Shown here piece after piece: positions 15,043 through 41,198 of a stretch of DNA of 41,198 nucleotides. Origin of the DNA: Bacteroidota bacterium (GTDB lineage: Bacteria; Bacteroidota; Bacteroidia; Bacteroidales; GCA-2748055); the NCBI GenBank assembly GCA_020047715.1, contig JAIFNN010000061.1, positions 1 through 41,198 on the forward strand. The letters run 5' to 3'. The first letter of the stretch is position 1. Each line of letters opens with the position of its first letter. The notes under the pieces are model-generated. The model was not told where the DNA came from. It saw only the letters and a program-made list of their open reading frames with translations, and did not search any database. A program made the translations under genes and the position numbers.

Positions 15043-15103
15043 GAAAAAAACATAATTTTAAAAACTTCTAAATTCTAAATTCTAACTTATAACTTCTAAA
15101 TAC

Positions 15104-18744: not shown

Positions 18745-18813
18745 CTAATTCTCAAATCCCCTCATCTTCAAATCCCCTAATCCCCTAATTCTCAAATCCC
18801 CCCATCTTCAAAT
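18745..18813. repeat. Pair of 29-nt direct repeats (40-nt spacing) in low-complexity intergenic DNA
   Basis: ctaattctcaaatcccctcatcttcaaat at 18745-18773 and ctaattctcaaatccccccatcttcaaat at 18785-18813 (1 mismatch). Confidence 0.85.
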
Positions 18814-18814
18814 T

Positions 18815-19264
18815 CTACTTAATCTTCCCAATCCTATCCATCGACCTCTTGGTATCCTTAAGTTTAATGGATTCGCGTTTATCGTACTCTTTCTTCCCTT
18901 TTGCAAGGGCTATGTCGAGCTTAACCAGACCTTTTTCATTTATAAACAGCCCCAGGGTTACAATAGTGAGTCCGGTTTCTTTAACTTTGCGATGGAGCTT
19001 TTTCAATTCCAACCGGTTGAGGAGCAGTTTCCTCTCTCTGCCGGGCGTATGGCTGTTATAACTGGCCCAGGCGTATTCCGATATCTGCATTCCCTTAACA
19101 AACAGTTCGTTGCCTTCAAAAAAGCAATACGATTCCACCAGGCTCACTTTTCCGAGGCGGATTGATTTAACCTCCGTACCCTGAAGTTTTATCCCGGCCG
19201 TGTACTTGTCGATTATTTCATAATCGTGATATGCTTTTTTGTTGCGGATGTTTATTTTCTGCAT
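18815..19264 (-). CDS. smpB: SsrA-binding protein SmpB
   Basis: [40 protein letters not shown]...[30 protein letters not shown]. Confidence 0.98.
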
Positions 19265-35361: not shown

Positions 35362-36324
35362 CTACCAGCTACTTTGGTTAGAAGACCTGGTTTTTTTTCC
35401 TTTTATATTAAGACCTGCAGTAAGTTCAATTACGGGCTCTCTGATATAAAACGCTGAATTTTTTGGGATTATAAAGTAGGCTCCCAAATATACGCCCGGG
35501 TATTTGTATTGAAAGAAAAACGAAGTTGAATTTCTGTCGTTGAAGTATGTGCCGATGCAGAAATCTTTGAGGTAAAGCTTAACTACCGGGTTAACATTTT
35601 CGAAGAGTTTGATAGAATTGAAGCTATCTGTCTCAAAAATAACCGAAGGTTCAAGCACGATTCCCATGGAACGCTGCAGAAGAATTTTATACCCGGTTTG
35701 GAAATGGAATTGCCGGGAAACAGGTATTTCATATCTGCCCAGACTATCTGGGGCTTCAGGGTTTCCTGCAATATTGGTAGATGATACCCCGATGTGGAAA
35801 TTGGAGTTGTAAAAGTAAACCCCTAAATCCATGTTGGGATAAAATGTTTTTTTAGGAGGAATTGCAAGCAATGAGTCACTCGAAGCATCATTGGTAATCG
35901 TGTTATAAACCCCTTTTATAGTTCCCCCGAAGGATAAAAAGGACAGGTTGTTTTTGCTTACGGGAATATGATAGGAGGCTGCAAATGCCCCACCCACATT
36001 GCGTGAAGCGTTATTCAAATCGTTAAAGAATGCCCCTCCAATACCGATATTGCTGAATTGTTTGGTTTCGGGGGATGAGAAATATACCGGTCCCTTTTTC
36101 GAAAGTCGGGTATCCCCGCTGAGAATTTGTGATGTGGTTTTATTATGAAAAGCAGCAATCACGTTTATAGAACTGTAGTCTTTACAGCCTGCCATGGCCG
36201 GGTTGAAAACAAAGGGGCTGAAAATCCGGTATGAAACAGGATTCAGAGGCATCTGTTGCCCCTCTGATTTAACTACGTAAAATGAAAGTGACAGTAGTAA
36301 GAAAACCTTGATTATAGAATACAT
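35362..36324 (-). CDS. PorP/SprF family type IX secretion system-associated membrane protein
   Basis: MPLNPVSYRIFSPFVFNPAMAGCKDYSSINVIAAFHNKTT (FNPAxAG N-terminal signature), GLNIKGKK C-terminus. Start chosen at 36324 (signal peptide). Confidence 0.85.
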   Translation of the reverse strand: MYSIIKVFLLLSLSFYVVKSEGQQMPLNPVSYRIFSPFVFNPAMAGCKDYSSINVIAAFHNKTTSQILSGDTRLSKKGPVYFSSPETKQFSNIGIGGAFFNDLNNASRNVGGAFAASYHIPVSKNNLSFLSFGGTIKGVYNTITNDASSDSLLAIPPKKTFYPNMDLGVYFYNSNFHIGVSSTNIAGNPEAPDSLGRYEIPVSRQFHFQTGYKILLQRSMGIVLEPSVIFETDSFNSIKLFENVNPVVKLYLKDFCIGTYFNDRNSTSFFFQYKYPGVYLGAYFIIPKNSAFYIREPVIELTAGLNIKGKKTRSSNQSSW

Positions 36325-36584
36325 ATGAGTTCGTAAGTGAATGAGTTTAATACAATCGGATTGCTGTTTTGGAACTACTAATAAAGATAGGTTATTTTTC
36401 CTATTCAATTCAAGTCATTTTTACGGAAAGTTTAATATTTTCTATATCATGGCCCTTTTAGTAGGGGCTAAATCTGATAATTAATAGTTTTATTAAACAG
36501 ATTTTTAGGCAGTGTTGTTCAAGGATTTGCTATAAAGGGGGTGTCGTAATCACAGGATCGATCTGCCACTAATTAACACAATAT

Positions 36585-37582: not shown

Positions 37583-39550
37583 ATGTGTGGGGTTGCCGGA
37601 ATTATTGATTATCAAAAGAAAGATAACAATAAGCATATTGTAAAGAATATGCTCACAGCAATTAGTTATCGTGGACCGGATGAAAGTGGGATTTATCATT
37701 CTCCCTTCGCAACTATTGGAAATGTGCGCCTGAGTATCGTCGATATTTCCGGGGGACAGCAACCTTTATCGGATCCATCTGGCCGGTATTGGATTGTTTT
37801 TAACGGGGAAATATTTAATTATCCCGAGCTACGAAAAGATCTTGCTGCCAAAGGCTGTCAGTTTTCTACACACTCCGATACCGAGGTTTTGGTTCAGCTT
37901 TATGCAACTTATGGGAAAAAGTGTTTGTCGCTTCTCAACGGACAGTTTGCTTTTGCCATATGGGATAAGATGGAGCAGGAGTTGTTTGTTGCGCGCGACA
38001 GGGTAGGCATCCGGCCGCTCTTTTACAACATCTCTGATGGAGTTCTTACATTCGCTTCAGAGATTAAATCCCTTCTCCAGAATAAAAATATTGCAGCTGA
38101 ACTGTCGCATAAGAGCTTGTCGCAGGTTTACACCTTCTGGACGGCAATCACCCCTAATACAGCCTTCAAGAATGTTCTCGAACTTCCCCCCGGACACTGC
38201 CTGCATTATAGCAGAAAGGGCTTGCGAATTGAAAAGTTTTGGGATTTGAACTATGGAAAGCGTAACGCTTCCCTCTCCTTCAGCGATGCAACCGAAGGTT
38301 TTCATGAGCTTTTTACCGATGCGGTGAGAATCCGTTTAAGAGCCGATGTTGAGGTTGCTGCCTATTTGAGCGGGGGGATCGACTCCAGTGCAACTGTTTC
38401 ATACATCAAGGATATCGAGCCGGGGGTGCTCAATACCTTTTCAATAGGTTTTGAAGAGAAGGATTTTGATGAAAGTTCATACCAAAATGAGGCGGCCAGG
38501 TATTTTAATACCACTCACAAGTCGATAAAATGCTCGTCAAAAGAAATAGCGGAAAGTTTCCCTAAGATTGTGTGGCATTCCGAAACTCCAATAACCCGAA
38601 CGGCTCCTGTGCCGATGTTCCTTCTTTCGAAGCTGGTGCGTGAGAGTAATATAAAGGTGGTTATCACGGGGGAGGGTGCCGACGAAATCCTTGCCGGTTA
38701 CGATATTTTCAAAGAGGCGAAGATCAGGAGGTTCTGGGCCTCTCAGCCCGATTCTGCAATCCGGCCCTTGCTTCTTAAGAAACTGTACCCCTATCTTCCT
38801 CAGATGAATGGGGCAAATCCAGCCATGCTGAAGATGTTCTATGGTTTCAAACTGGAGGATATCGGAAACCCGTTTTATTCCCATCTGATGCGTTGGAACA
38901 ATTCAAACCACATCAAAAAACATTTTAACGAAGAGCTCAAGGGTAAATTGGATGGCTACTCTGTTTTTACGGATATTGAGGAGCGCTTGCCTGCTGGATT
39001 TGATTCCTGGGATTACCTGGAGAAATCGCAATGGCTTGAAACCACAATTTTCATGTCAGGCTACCTTCTTTCTTCCCAAGGCGACAGGATGGGTATGGCA
39101 AACTCGGTGGAAGGAAGATATCCTTTCCTCGACTACCGTGTAATTGAGTTTTGTAATTCACTTCCGGAACGTTTTAAGCTAAATGGACTGAATGAAAAGT
39201 TTTTGCTTAAGAAACTACTGATAAACAAAATACCGGATCGTATCCTTAACCGCTCAAAGCAAGCCTACAGGGCTCCCATAAGAAGCGTCTTCCTTTCGAA
39301 GGATGCACCTGAATATGTAGCTGAAATGCTTTCCCCGGAATATACCTCCAAAGTGGGCGTATTCAGTTATGATTCGATTTCAGCATTGCTTTCGAAGATT
39401 GAAAAATCCGGAAGCAGCAGCGAAGTGGACAACATGGTACTGACATCGGTTATTTCAACGCATTTGTTGTATTCTCAGTTCATTGAAAACAAGACAGAGG
39501 GATTGTTGGCTGCGCCATTGAGGAATTTTAGGGTGATTGAGGAGGGGTAG
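37583..39550 (+). CDS. asnB: Asparagine synthase (glutamine-hydrolysing)-type amidotransferase
   Basis: MCGVAGI N-terminal Cys nucleophile, SYRGPDESG, FNGEIFNY; synthetase motif YLSGGIDSSATVSYI; GEGADEILAGYD. 6 nt downstream of ACP stop. Confidence 0.95.
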   Translation: MCGVAGIIDYQKKDNNKHIVKNMLTAISYRGPDESGIYHSPFATIGNVRLSIVDISGGQQPLSDPSGRYWIVFNGEIFNYPELRKDLAAKGCQFSTHSDTEVLVQLYATYGKKCLSLLNGQFAFAIWDKMEQELFVARDRVGIRPLFYNISDGVLTFASEIKSLLQNKNIAAELSHKSLSQVYTFWTAITPNTAFKNVLELPPGHCLHYSRKGLRIEKFWDLNYGKRNASLSFSDATEGFHELFTDAVRIRLRADVEVAAYLSGGIDSSATVSYIKDIEPGVLNTFSIGFEEKDFDESSYQNEAARYFNTTHKSIKCSSKEIAESFPKIVWHSETPITRTAPVPMFLLSKLVRESNIKVVITGEGADEILAGYDIFKEAKIRRFWASQPDSAIRPLLLKKLYPYLPQMNGANPAMLKMFYGFKLEDIGNPFYSHLMRWNNSNHIKKHFNEELKGKLDGYSVFTDIEERLPAGFDSWDYLEKSQWLETTIFMSGYLLSSQGDRMGMANSVEGRYPFLDYRVIEFCNSLPERFKLNGLNEKFLLKKLLINKIPDRILNRSKQAYRAPIRSVFLSKDAPEYVAEMLSPEYTSKVGVFSYDSISALLSKIEKSGSSSEVDNMVLTSVISTHLLYSQFIENKTEGLLAAPLRNFRVIEEG

Positions 39551-39555
39551 GTAGT

Positions 39556-39708
39556 TGTTTCAGGGTTTTGGGCCTGCGGCCGTTCCAAGGTTTCAGGCCT
39601 GCGGCGTTTCAAGGTTTCAGGCCTTCGGCGTTTCAGGGCCTACGGCCGTTACATTGTTTCAGGCCTTCGGCGTTTCAGGGCCTACGGCCGTTGCATTGTT
39701 TCAGGGCT
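39556..39708. repeat. GC-hairpin repeat block L (GTTTCA plus GGCCTnCGGCC modules), including a 42-nt tandem duplication
   Basis: Copies at 39614-39655 and 39656-39697 differ at one base (gttacatt/gttgcatt); multiple ggcctgcggcc, ggcctacggcc and gccttcggc hairpins. Confidence 0.92.
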
Positions 39709-39727
39709 AGGTAATCCGAAATGCTTT

Positions 39728-39995
39728 GAAACTCTGAAACCCTGAAACTCTGAAACTCTGAAACTCTGAAACATTGAAACTCTGAAACTCTGAAACATTG
39801 AAACTCTGAAACTCTGAAACATTGAAACTCTGAAACTCTGAAACATTGATTGAAACTCTGAAACTCTGAAACTCTGAAACATTGAAACTCTGAAACTCTG
39901 AAACTCTGAAACCCTGAAACTCTGAAACATTGAAACATTGAAACCCTGAAACCCTGAAACCCTGAAACATTGAAACCCTGAAACCCTGAAACAAC
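39728..39995. repeat. 8-bp satellite array, 33 units of GAAAC[TC/CC/AT]T plus one GATT half-unit
   Basis: Manual parse: 33 x 8 bp + 4 bp = 268 bp. Units are GAAACTCT, GAAACATT and GAAACCCT; last unit GAAACAAC. Confidence 0.95.
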
Positions 39996-40055
39996 GAACA
40001 AACGAACACAAGCTCATAAAACAATAAATAAAAAATCAACCACATAACAAACATC

Positions 40056-41048
40056 ATGACACAAAAAAAGCCATTTTCCAAAGACCTGATTTTGCTTGAT
40101 AATGTAGAGAAAGCAGTTGATGAAATTGTACTGAAACTCCAGAATGACGTGCTGCATAATATTAAGCGCTTTGGCGCTGCCATTGGTATCAGCGGTGGGA
40201 TTGACTCCTCAGTATGCATGGCTCTGGCCGCTAAAGCCTTTGGACCGGAAAAAGTGTTGGGTATAATGATGCCCGAGCACGATTCCAGTCCCGAAAGCGA
40301 AGAGCTGGCTCGTGAGCTGGCCGACAAGTTCGGTGTCAAAGCCATCAAGGAGGATCTGACGCCTGCACTTGCCGGTTTTAAATGCTACGAAAGACGCGAT
40401 GAGGCCGTAAAAAGGGTTTTTCCTGAATACGATCCGAAAACTTATAAGATGAAAATCGGCGTCAGGCAGACAGGACTCTATAACAACCTGCCCCCGCTCT
40501 TCTCCCTCACCATTATCGACAAAGACGGGAAGCAGCAGGATAAAATTCTTCAGGCACGTGAGTACCTGCAAATTGTTGCCGCCTCAAACTTCAAGCAGCG
40601 GGCAAGAATGTCGATGGTTTATTACCATGCCGAAGCACTTCATTATGCAGTTATCGGAACTCCCAACAAGCATGAACAGGAACAGGGATTCTTTGTGAAA
40701 TACGGAGACGGTGGTGCAGATGTTATGCCCATCGGAAACTTATACAAAACGCAGGTTTATCAACTCGCTGAATACCTGGGAGTCCCCAAACGCATTATCG
40801 TAAGAACCCCAACAACCGACACGTATTCTGCCGAGCAGACTCAGGAAGAATTTTTCTACCAATTACCTTTTCAGCTGATGGATATATTCTGGCTTGGATT
40901 TGAGAATGGATACCCTGCCAAAGAGGTAGGATTGGTTATGGGTGAAACCGAGGAAAGAGTAGAGGCTCTGTTTAGAAATTTCGAAAGGAAGCGTTTAACT
41001 ACCGAATATCTTAGGATGGCTCCGGTGCGGGACTATTTTGGGAGTTAG
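40056..41048 (+). CDS. nadE: NAD(+) synthase, ammonia-dependent type (no nitrilase domain)
   Basis: GAAIGISGGIDSSVCMALAAKAFGPEKVLGIMMPEHDSSPES; HYAVIGTPNKHEQEQGFFVKYGDGGADVMPIGNLYKTQVYQLAEYLGVP. Confidence 0.96.
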   Translation: MTQKKPFSKDLILLDNVEKAVDEIVLKLQNDVLHNIKRFGAAIGISGGIDSSVCMALAAKAFGPEKVLGIMMPEHDSSPESEELARELADKFGVKAIKEDLTPALAGFKCYERRDEAVKRVFPEYDPKTYKMKIGVRQTGLYNNLPPLFSLTIIDKDGKQQDKILQAREYLQIVAASNFKQRARMSMVYYHAEALHYAVIGTPNKHEQEQGFFVKYGDGGADVMPIGNLYKTQVYQLAEYLGVPKRIIVRTPTTDTYSAEQTQEEFFYQLPFQLMDIFWLGFENGYPAKEVGLVMGETEERVEALFRNFERKRLTTEYLRMAPVRDYFGS

Positions 41049-41198
41049 TGTTTGAGGGTTTCTGGCCTTCGGCCGTTTCAGGGTTTCAGGGCCTTCGGCC
41101 GTTGGAGGGTTTCAGGCCTGCGGCGTTTCAGGCCTTCGGCCGTTGCAGTCGCCTATGGCGGTTTCAGGGCCTTCGGCCGTTGCATTGTTTCAGGGCTT
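41049..41198. repeat. GC-hairpin repeat block R, same family as block L, continuing beyond the window
   Basis: ggccttcggccg recurring; 24-nt string cggccgttgcattgtttcagggct at 41174-41197 is identical to 39685-39708. Confidence 0.92.

Follow-up and report, generated by a model that had tools for sequence, protein, structure and literature searches.

Introduction

Heptamer direct repeats of the TAACTGA type have been described in Beggiatoaceae, Cyanobacteria and some Bacteroidetes (MacGregor, 2015; PMC4679880). They occupy many loci per genome, and their arrays reach 43 copies in several Bacteroidetes and Cyanobacteria. Their orientation is biased toward start codons, although reverse sets occasionally follow stops (PMC4679880). 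Their taxonomic distribution is patchy, no mobility mechanism is known, and the Maribeggiatoa genome holds 169 direct sets and one inverted (PMC4679880). Short intergenic tandem repeats of this general sort are usually viewed as slippage debris.

The window analyzed here, i.e., the whole 41,198-nucleotide stretch, carries an array of GAAACNNT octamers between an asparagine synthase-like gene (asnB-like) and a nadE-like gene. Among described kinds, the TAACTGA heptamer repeats come closest, and this GTTTCARR element appears akin to them. Both consist of short intergenic tandem units of the 7-9 bp period class and are found at several loci per genome, with patchy occurrence and an orientation bias. 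The element differs in its 8-bp GTTTCARR unit, fixed-polarity inverted pairs and embedded GC-rich palindromes; its unit is GAAACNNT and not TAACTGA. It also resembles the long simple sequence repeats (LSSR) and cyanobacterial short tandemly repeated repetitive sequences (STRR) in having intergenic, copy-number variable 7-9 bp units, and periods of 8-9 dominate the samples from this genome, in which a second GAAAC array was found on contig C15. The LSSR and STRR classes are not known to be defined by inverted pairs of fixed polarity or by conservation of sites.

Like REP and BIME sequences (PMC3733652, PMC2817692), the element is intergenic, palindromic and dispersed, and the GGCCTNCGGCC hairpins of its left arm resemble small REP-like palindromes. 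Unlike these 20-40 bp palindromes with a GTAG or CGTC tag, however, its arms are tandem octamers of variable number; by inspection, no such tag was seen in the arm sequences, and none of the three Y1 transposase (Y1_Tnp) genes is a cognate RAYT flanked by the repeats. As in MITEs, the ends are conserved in fixed polarity. The interior is not conserved, and orthologous sites without the element were either diverged or carried other repeats, with no clean empty site, at which a target-site duplication would show, found among them. A CRISPR array was rejected, as the units are contiguous and without unique spacers of regular length, and a likeness to the CRISPR handle ATTGAAAC was judged coincidental. 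An Rfam search over the whole window returned no family, and no description of GTTTCARR pairs was found in the open-access literature using sequence strings and Acidobacteria repeat terms.

Architecture of the asnB-nadE interval

The features of the interval and its flanking genes are as follows.

37583..39550, + strand: upstream gene, asparagine synthase (glutamine-hydrolysing) like, 655 aa (Pfam PF00733, E 2.2e-84; PF13537, E 7e-46)
39557..39710, - strand: left arm, the array octamer inverted (GTTTCAGG/GTTTCAAG/GTTACATT) and interleaved with palindromes GGCCTGCGGCC/GGCCTACGGCC; from sequence and TRF periods of 24 and 42 bp, with GGCCTDCGGCC at 39571, 39637 and 39679
39711..39727, no strand: short spacer between the arms (sequence)
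39728..39992, + strand: right arm, 32 GAAACNNT octamers with NN = TC, CC or AT, plus a partial 33rd unit
39752..39847, + strand: four tandem 24-bp blocks TCT-TCT-ATT, units 4-15 (unit parse)
39848..39851, + strand: GATT half-unit, an ATT-type unit minus 4 bp (unit parse)
39993..40055, + strand: A-rich leader before nadE (sequence)
40056..41048, + strand: nadE-like NAD synthase, 330 aa (Pfam PF02540, E 2.6e-49)
41050..41198, - strand: a further left-type block (GTTTCAGG plus GGCCTTCGGCC), adjoining the nadE stop and cut by the contig end (sequence, TRF and pattern matches)

TRF placed one array of period 8, with 33.8 copies, at 39727-39992, and the two-unit pattern GAAACNNTGAAACNNT matched 30 times in the window against 0.01 expected from dinucleotide-preserving shuffles. 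The repeat noticed in the first-pass annotation is thus real, with 32 of its 33 units complete and the last, GAAACAAC, only partial. The units follow one another in the order TCTTTATTATTATTA, GATT, TTTATTTCTAACCCACC. As had been claimed from first sight of the sequence, variation is almost confined to two positions, with NN restricted to TC (17 units), CC (7) or AT (8). The proposed amplification of 24-bp blocks on top of the 8-bp unit was likewise found in the parse, units 4-15 reading (TTA)x4, i.e., a run of four 24-bp blocks. That GATT is a slippage or recombination scar is supported by its reading as an ATT-type unit lacking 4 bp. By permutation, unit order was modestly non-random at lags 3 and 4 (p about 0.01 and about 0.02, respectively), these p values being nominal with eight lags tested. 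The length of the array is provisional, the assembly being a fragmented MAG of 254 contigs and 87.6% completeness in which the window is one complete 41-kb contig.

The array does not stand alone, and the first-pass annotation overlooked the inverted copies with hairpins beside it and after nadE, as well as a second array of this genome on contig C15. Upstream of it lies the same octamer in inverse orientation, alternating with GGCCTNCGGCC hairpins, so that the element as a whole has the octamer GTTTCARR/YYTGAAAC and the array is one oversized half of a mirror-image intergenic repeat. The 505-bp asnB-nadE spacer folds as one long stem, with an MFE of -144 kcal/mol compared with -105.7 kcal/mol in shuffles (z -6.3). 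The free NN positions, however, do not co-vary between arms (12 identical versus 13.0 expected), and native stems and those with arms swapped between elements are equally stable, with a mean of -35.9 kcal/mol in both. The stem therefore exists through the common core of the two arms; selection on pairing drew no support, and an RNA stem under selection was rejected for lack of co-variation. An intrinsic terminator was rejected as well: in the window no terminator was called at either arm, and in Acidobacteriaceae just 13% of arm ends had TTTT in the 15 nt beyond the arm.

No moving enzyme was found. RAYT/REP mobilization was discarded, since the three Y1 transposase genes are present while their flanks hold neither the hairpin nor octamer arrays. 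Nor does GGCCTDCGGCC behave as a genome-wide REP, as seven of its 10 matches are on this contig and the other three apparently lie in coding sequence. In the congener G001, a locus (L096, 11450-11720) combining CCCTGAAA octamers, CGGCCGAAGG palindromes and CCCTTCGACAAGCTCAGGGCAGCG blocks is that genome's version of the left arm.

Distribution of the octamer and of short tandem arrays

Within its own genome, the three-unit GAAAC pattern recurred once, with the same variants CC, TC and AT, at the contig-end position C15:8967-9126. Counting this genome, three of the 61 genomes in the search of relatives carried the three-unit pattern, and two of 397 in the phylum search carried the four-unit pattern. 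Among the matches listed in a scan of species genomes were many uncultured Bacteroidales, Saprospiraceae and Acidobacteriaceae. One Acidobacteriaceae family was sampled further, and the element was patchy within it (14/101 genomes). A viral origin was rejected, only eight stretches having been found in 2.9 million viral contigs.

Short tandem arrays in the sampled contigs were almost all of period 7-9, with hardly any of period 2-6 or 10-12 and none in shuffled sequence. The preferred period was genome-specific: 8 and 9 in the present genome, 7 in G011 (16/17), and 7 and 9 in G048, where TAACTGA-like heptamers occur alongside GAAAC octamers; G002 had nearly none. Numerous unrelated unit families of 7-9 bp are thus found side by side. 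The first-pass annotation's view that such an array is unusual in bacteria is accordingly only partly right, intergenic arrays of several 7-9 bp unit families being common here and in some relatives.

These observations bear on the alternative of a plain neutral minisatellite, in which 8-bp units slip in intergenic DNA with no element behind them. The 24-bp block repeats and half-unit scar, the absence of the array from most relatives (present in 3/61 and 2/397) and the many unrelated unit families side by side are all in its favor; the evidence against it comes from inverted pairs, as described below.

Two more short arrays were reported by TRF in the window, at 18745-18816 and 15066-15101, with octamers like AATCCCCT and heptamers TTCTAAA. 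Both congeners also carry intergenic 9-bp arrays of AGTGCCTAG and of inverted CTAGGCACT (L059 and L061 in this genome, L101 in G001). In G048, the ends of contigs C51 and C122 (L040, L043) have a common unique flank and differ in the order and number of GTTTCARR units, which reflects either population variation or assembly ambiguity.

Polarity and site conservation of inverted pairs

With strict patterns run over 24 genomes, 21 of which were picked for carrying GAAAC arrays, GTTTC-N11..41-GAAAC was hit 169 times, in 15 of the genomes. This figure exceeds the number of elements because hits overlap within single elements. The reversed order gave 0 hits, as did a reversed-letter control. Thirteen of the 169 hits were in Bacteroidota. 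Among loci fetched by a pairing-blind query, inverted neighbors less than 200 bp apart were in the order GTTTC-then-GAAAC in 25 cases and in the opposite order in 0; the only two opposite-order cases were further apart, with a gene in between. Another locus set, only partly independent as it includes polarity-picked loci, gave 73 versus 0. Direct neighboring arrays, which are common in Bacteroidota, were absent from Acidobacteriota in this set.

We claim this polarity for the GTTTC family alone, because over all non-GTTTC tandem inverted repeats the count was 17 versus 8; the wider idea of a G+T-rich arm invariably on the left, which had held in 6/6 cases in one test, was thus abandoned. For the heptamer GGCAGT the count was 2 versus 0, too few to judge. 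The median distance to stop codons was shorter for GTTTC-sense arrays (24 bp) than for GAAAC-sense arrays (89 bp; p 0.001). Distances to start codons are biased and were not used, since the GAAAC strand has TGA in every frame and pins predicted starts beside the arrays.

The elements of Acidobacteriaceae lie near gene ends, with medians of 15.5 and 25 bp by simple ORF calls, whatever the orientation of the genes. At orthologous sites across these genomes the arms are kept while the spacers have diverged, and both arms were kept in 35 of 64 orthologous intervals. Several other intervals hold inverted pairs of another unit, e.g., TTTGTAATT/CAATTACAAA in L152 and AGTAATTG/CAATTACT in L137. Intergenic regions orthologous to an element scored higher for inverted repeats than others (p 0.003, eight comparable). 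Orthologous Acidobacteriaceae sites at which the unit of the inverted pair differs between genomes are L152, L137, L350, L356 and L380, where it is as if the sequence were exchanged while the architecture stays.

Slippage yields no inverted partner, yet the pairs are inverted with a polarity of 169 versus 0, and arms persist at orthologous sites where spacers do not. The polarity result speaks strongly against the neutral minisatellite as a full account, and we consider that explanation unlikely. The outcome that the first-pass annotation had set against its own reading, purely random slippage lacking both a conserved core and a preferred location, was not what we found; a conserved core, intergenic location and fixed polarity were all seen.

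Somewhat less likely still is a binding array, as that annotation had also suggested, for a putative nucleoid, transcription-boundary or RNA-binding protein that would recognize GTTTCARR and need two facing arrays. In favor of the idea, the core is kept with two free positions, the polarity is absolute, the arms are interchangeable as expected of repeated protein sites, and GTTTC-sense arrays lie nearer stops. On the other hand, some orthologous sites carry a different unit family, presence is patchy even within one family, and no candidate binder was found.

Interpretation of the element

We consider it probable, with some reserve, that an inverted-repeat element of GTTTCARR/YYTGAAAC, non-coding and intergenic, has the array as its overgrown right arm. 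Such an element would grow by slippage or exchange, spread between intergenic sites and serve at most as a generic boundary. The observations on which this is based are the inverted left arm, the lineage-specific presence between asnB and nadE, the second array with the same three variants, and the fixed polarity in many other genomes. In many uncultured Bacteroidota and Acidobacteriota the octamer recurs between genes, in smaller pairs of one constant orientation, which speaks for an intergenic element of an undescribed kind and not for a nadE switch. Its kinship with the compact Acidobacteriaceae elements would be one of octamer, polarity and placement, because in the present genome a gap of 109 bp separates the closest strict two-unit runs of left and right arm, and the whole-genome test with the strict paired pattern gave no hit.

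Under this inverted-repeat reading, the arms may lengthen or shorten as blocks of 8 and 24 bp are gained or lost through slippage or unequal exchange. It is also likely that the element spreads between intergenic sites by copying or recombination, since variants are shared and the octamer is identical across loci. Transcripts crossing it would form a long stem, and it could thus act at most as a generic boundary between neighboring genes, not as a nadE-specific switch. The polarity could come from descent from one founding element, from a binder, or from repeat-writing from broken ends.

More speculatively, and to be taken as a doubtful extension, there might exist a cross-phylum class of one-orientation intergenic boundary elements. 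An enzyme or copying process would lay down GTTTCARR, or a binder would maintain it, such that the GTTTC strand enters the spacer from both sides, like two telomere tracts fused head-to-head, and the site could be re-written with another unit. Slippage predicts neither a 169-to-0 polarity common to Acidobacteriota and Bacteroidota, nor positions that are kept while spacers vary freely, nor the substitution of other repeat families at these sites. Polarity and site conservation make the origin and spread of such repeats directly testable by genome comparison. In practical terms, such repeats break short-read assemblies, and the contigs of these genomes often end inside them.

Gene context and the nadE question

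Homologues of nadE with 60-72% identity were found in eight same-family relatives. In six of the eight, nadE is immediately preceded by a complete asnB-like gene whose stop almost adjoins the nadE start, and there is no array. Of the other two, G015 has a contig that holds only the end of the asnB-like gene upstream of nadE, and G002 keeps only a remnant. The congener G001 is without this nadE. Since the two genes almost touch in relatives and lack the array there, the 505-bp spacer is lineage-specific, which makes it unlikely that it has a conserved function in nadE control.

The first-pass annotation's phase-variable spacer, whose change in copy number would control nadE, is highly improbable: the array does end 63 bp before the nadE start, and an array of this kind in G048 varies in unit order and number within one assembly, but the same gene pair occurs in relatives without the array, similar arrays adjoin many unrelated genes, the array lies outside the reading frame, and nadE has a biosynthetic function that is not usual for a contingency locus. 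Its further suggestion of a replication or recombination site drew no support, as nothing indicative of ori/ter or of a recombination site was found. On the other side of the asnB-like gene, a gene for a PorP/SprF type IX secretion system membrane protein lies on the minus strand at 35362-36408.
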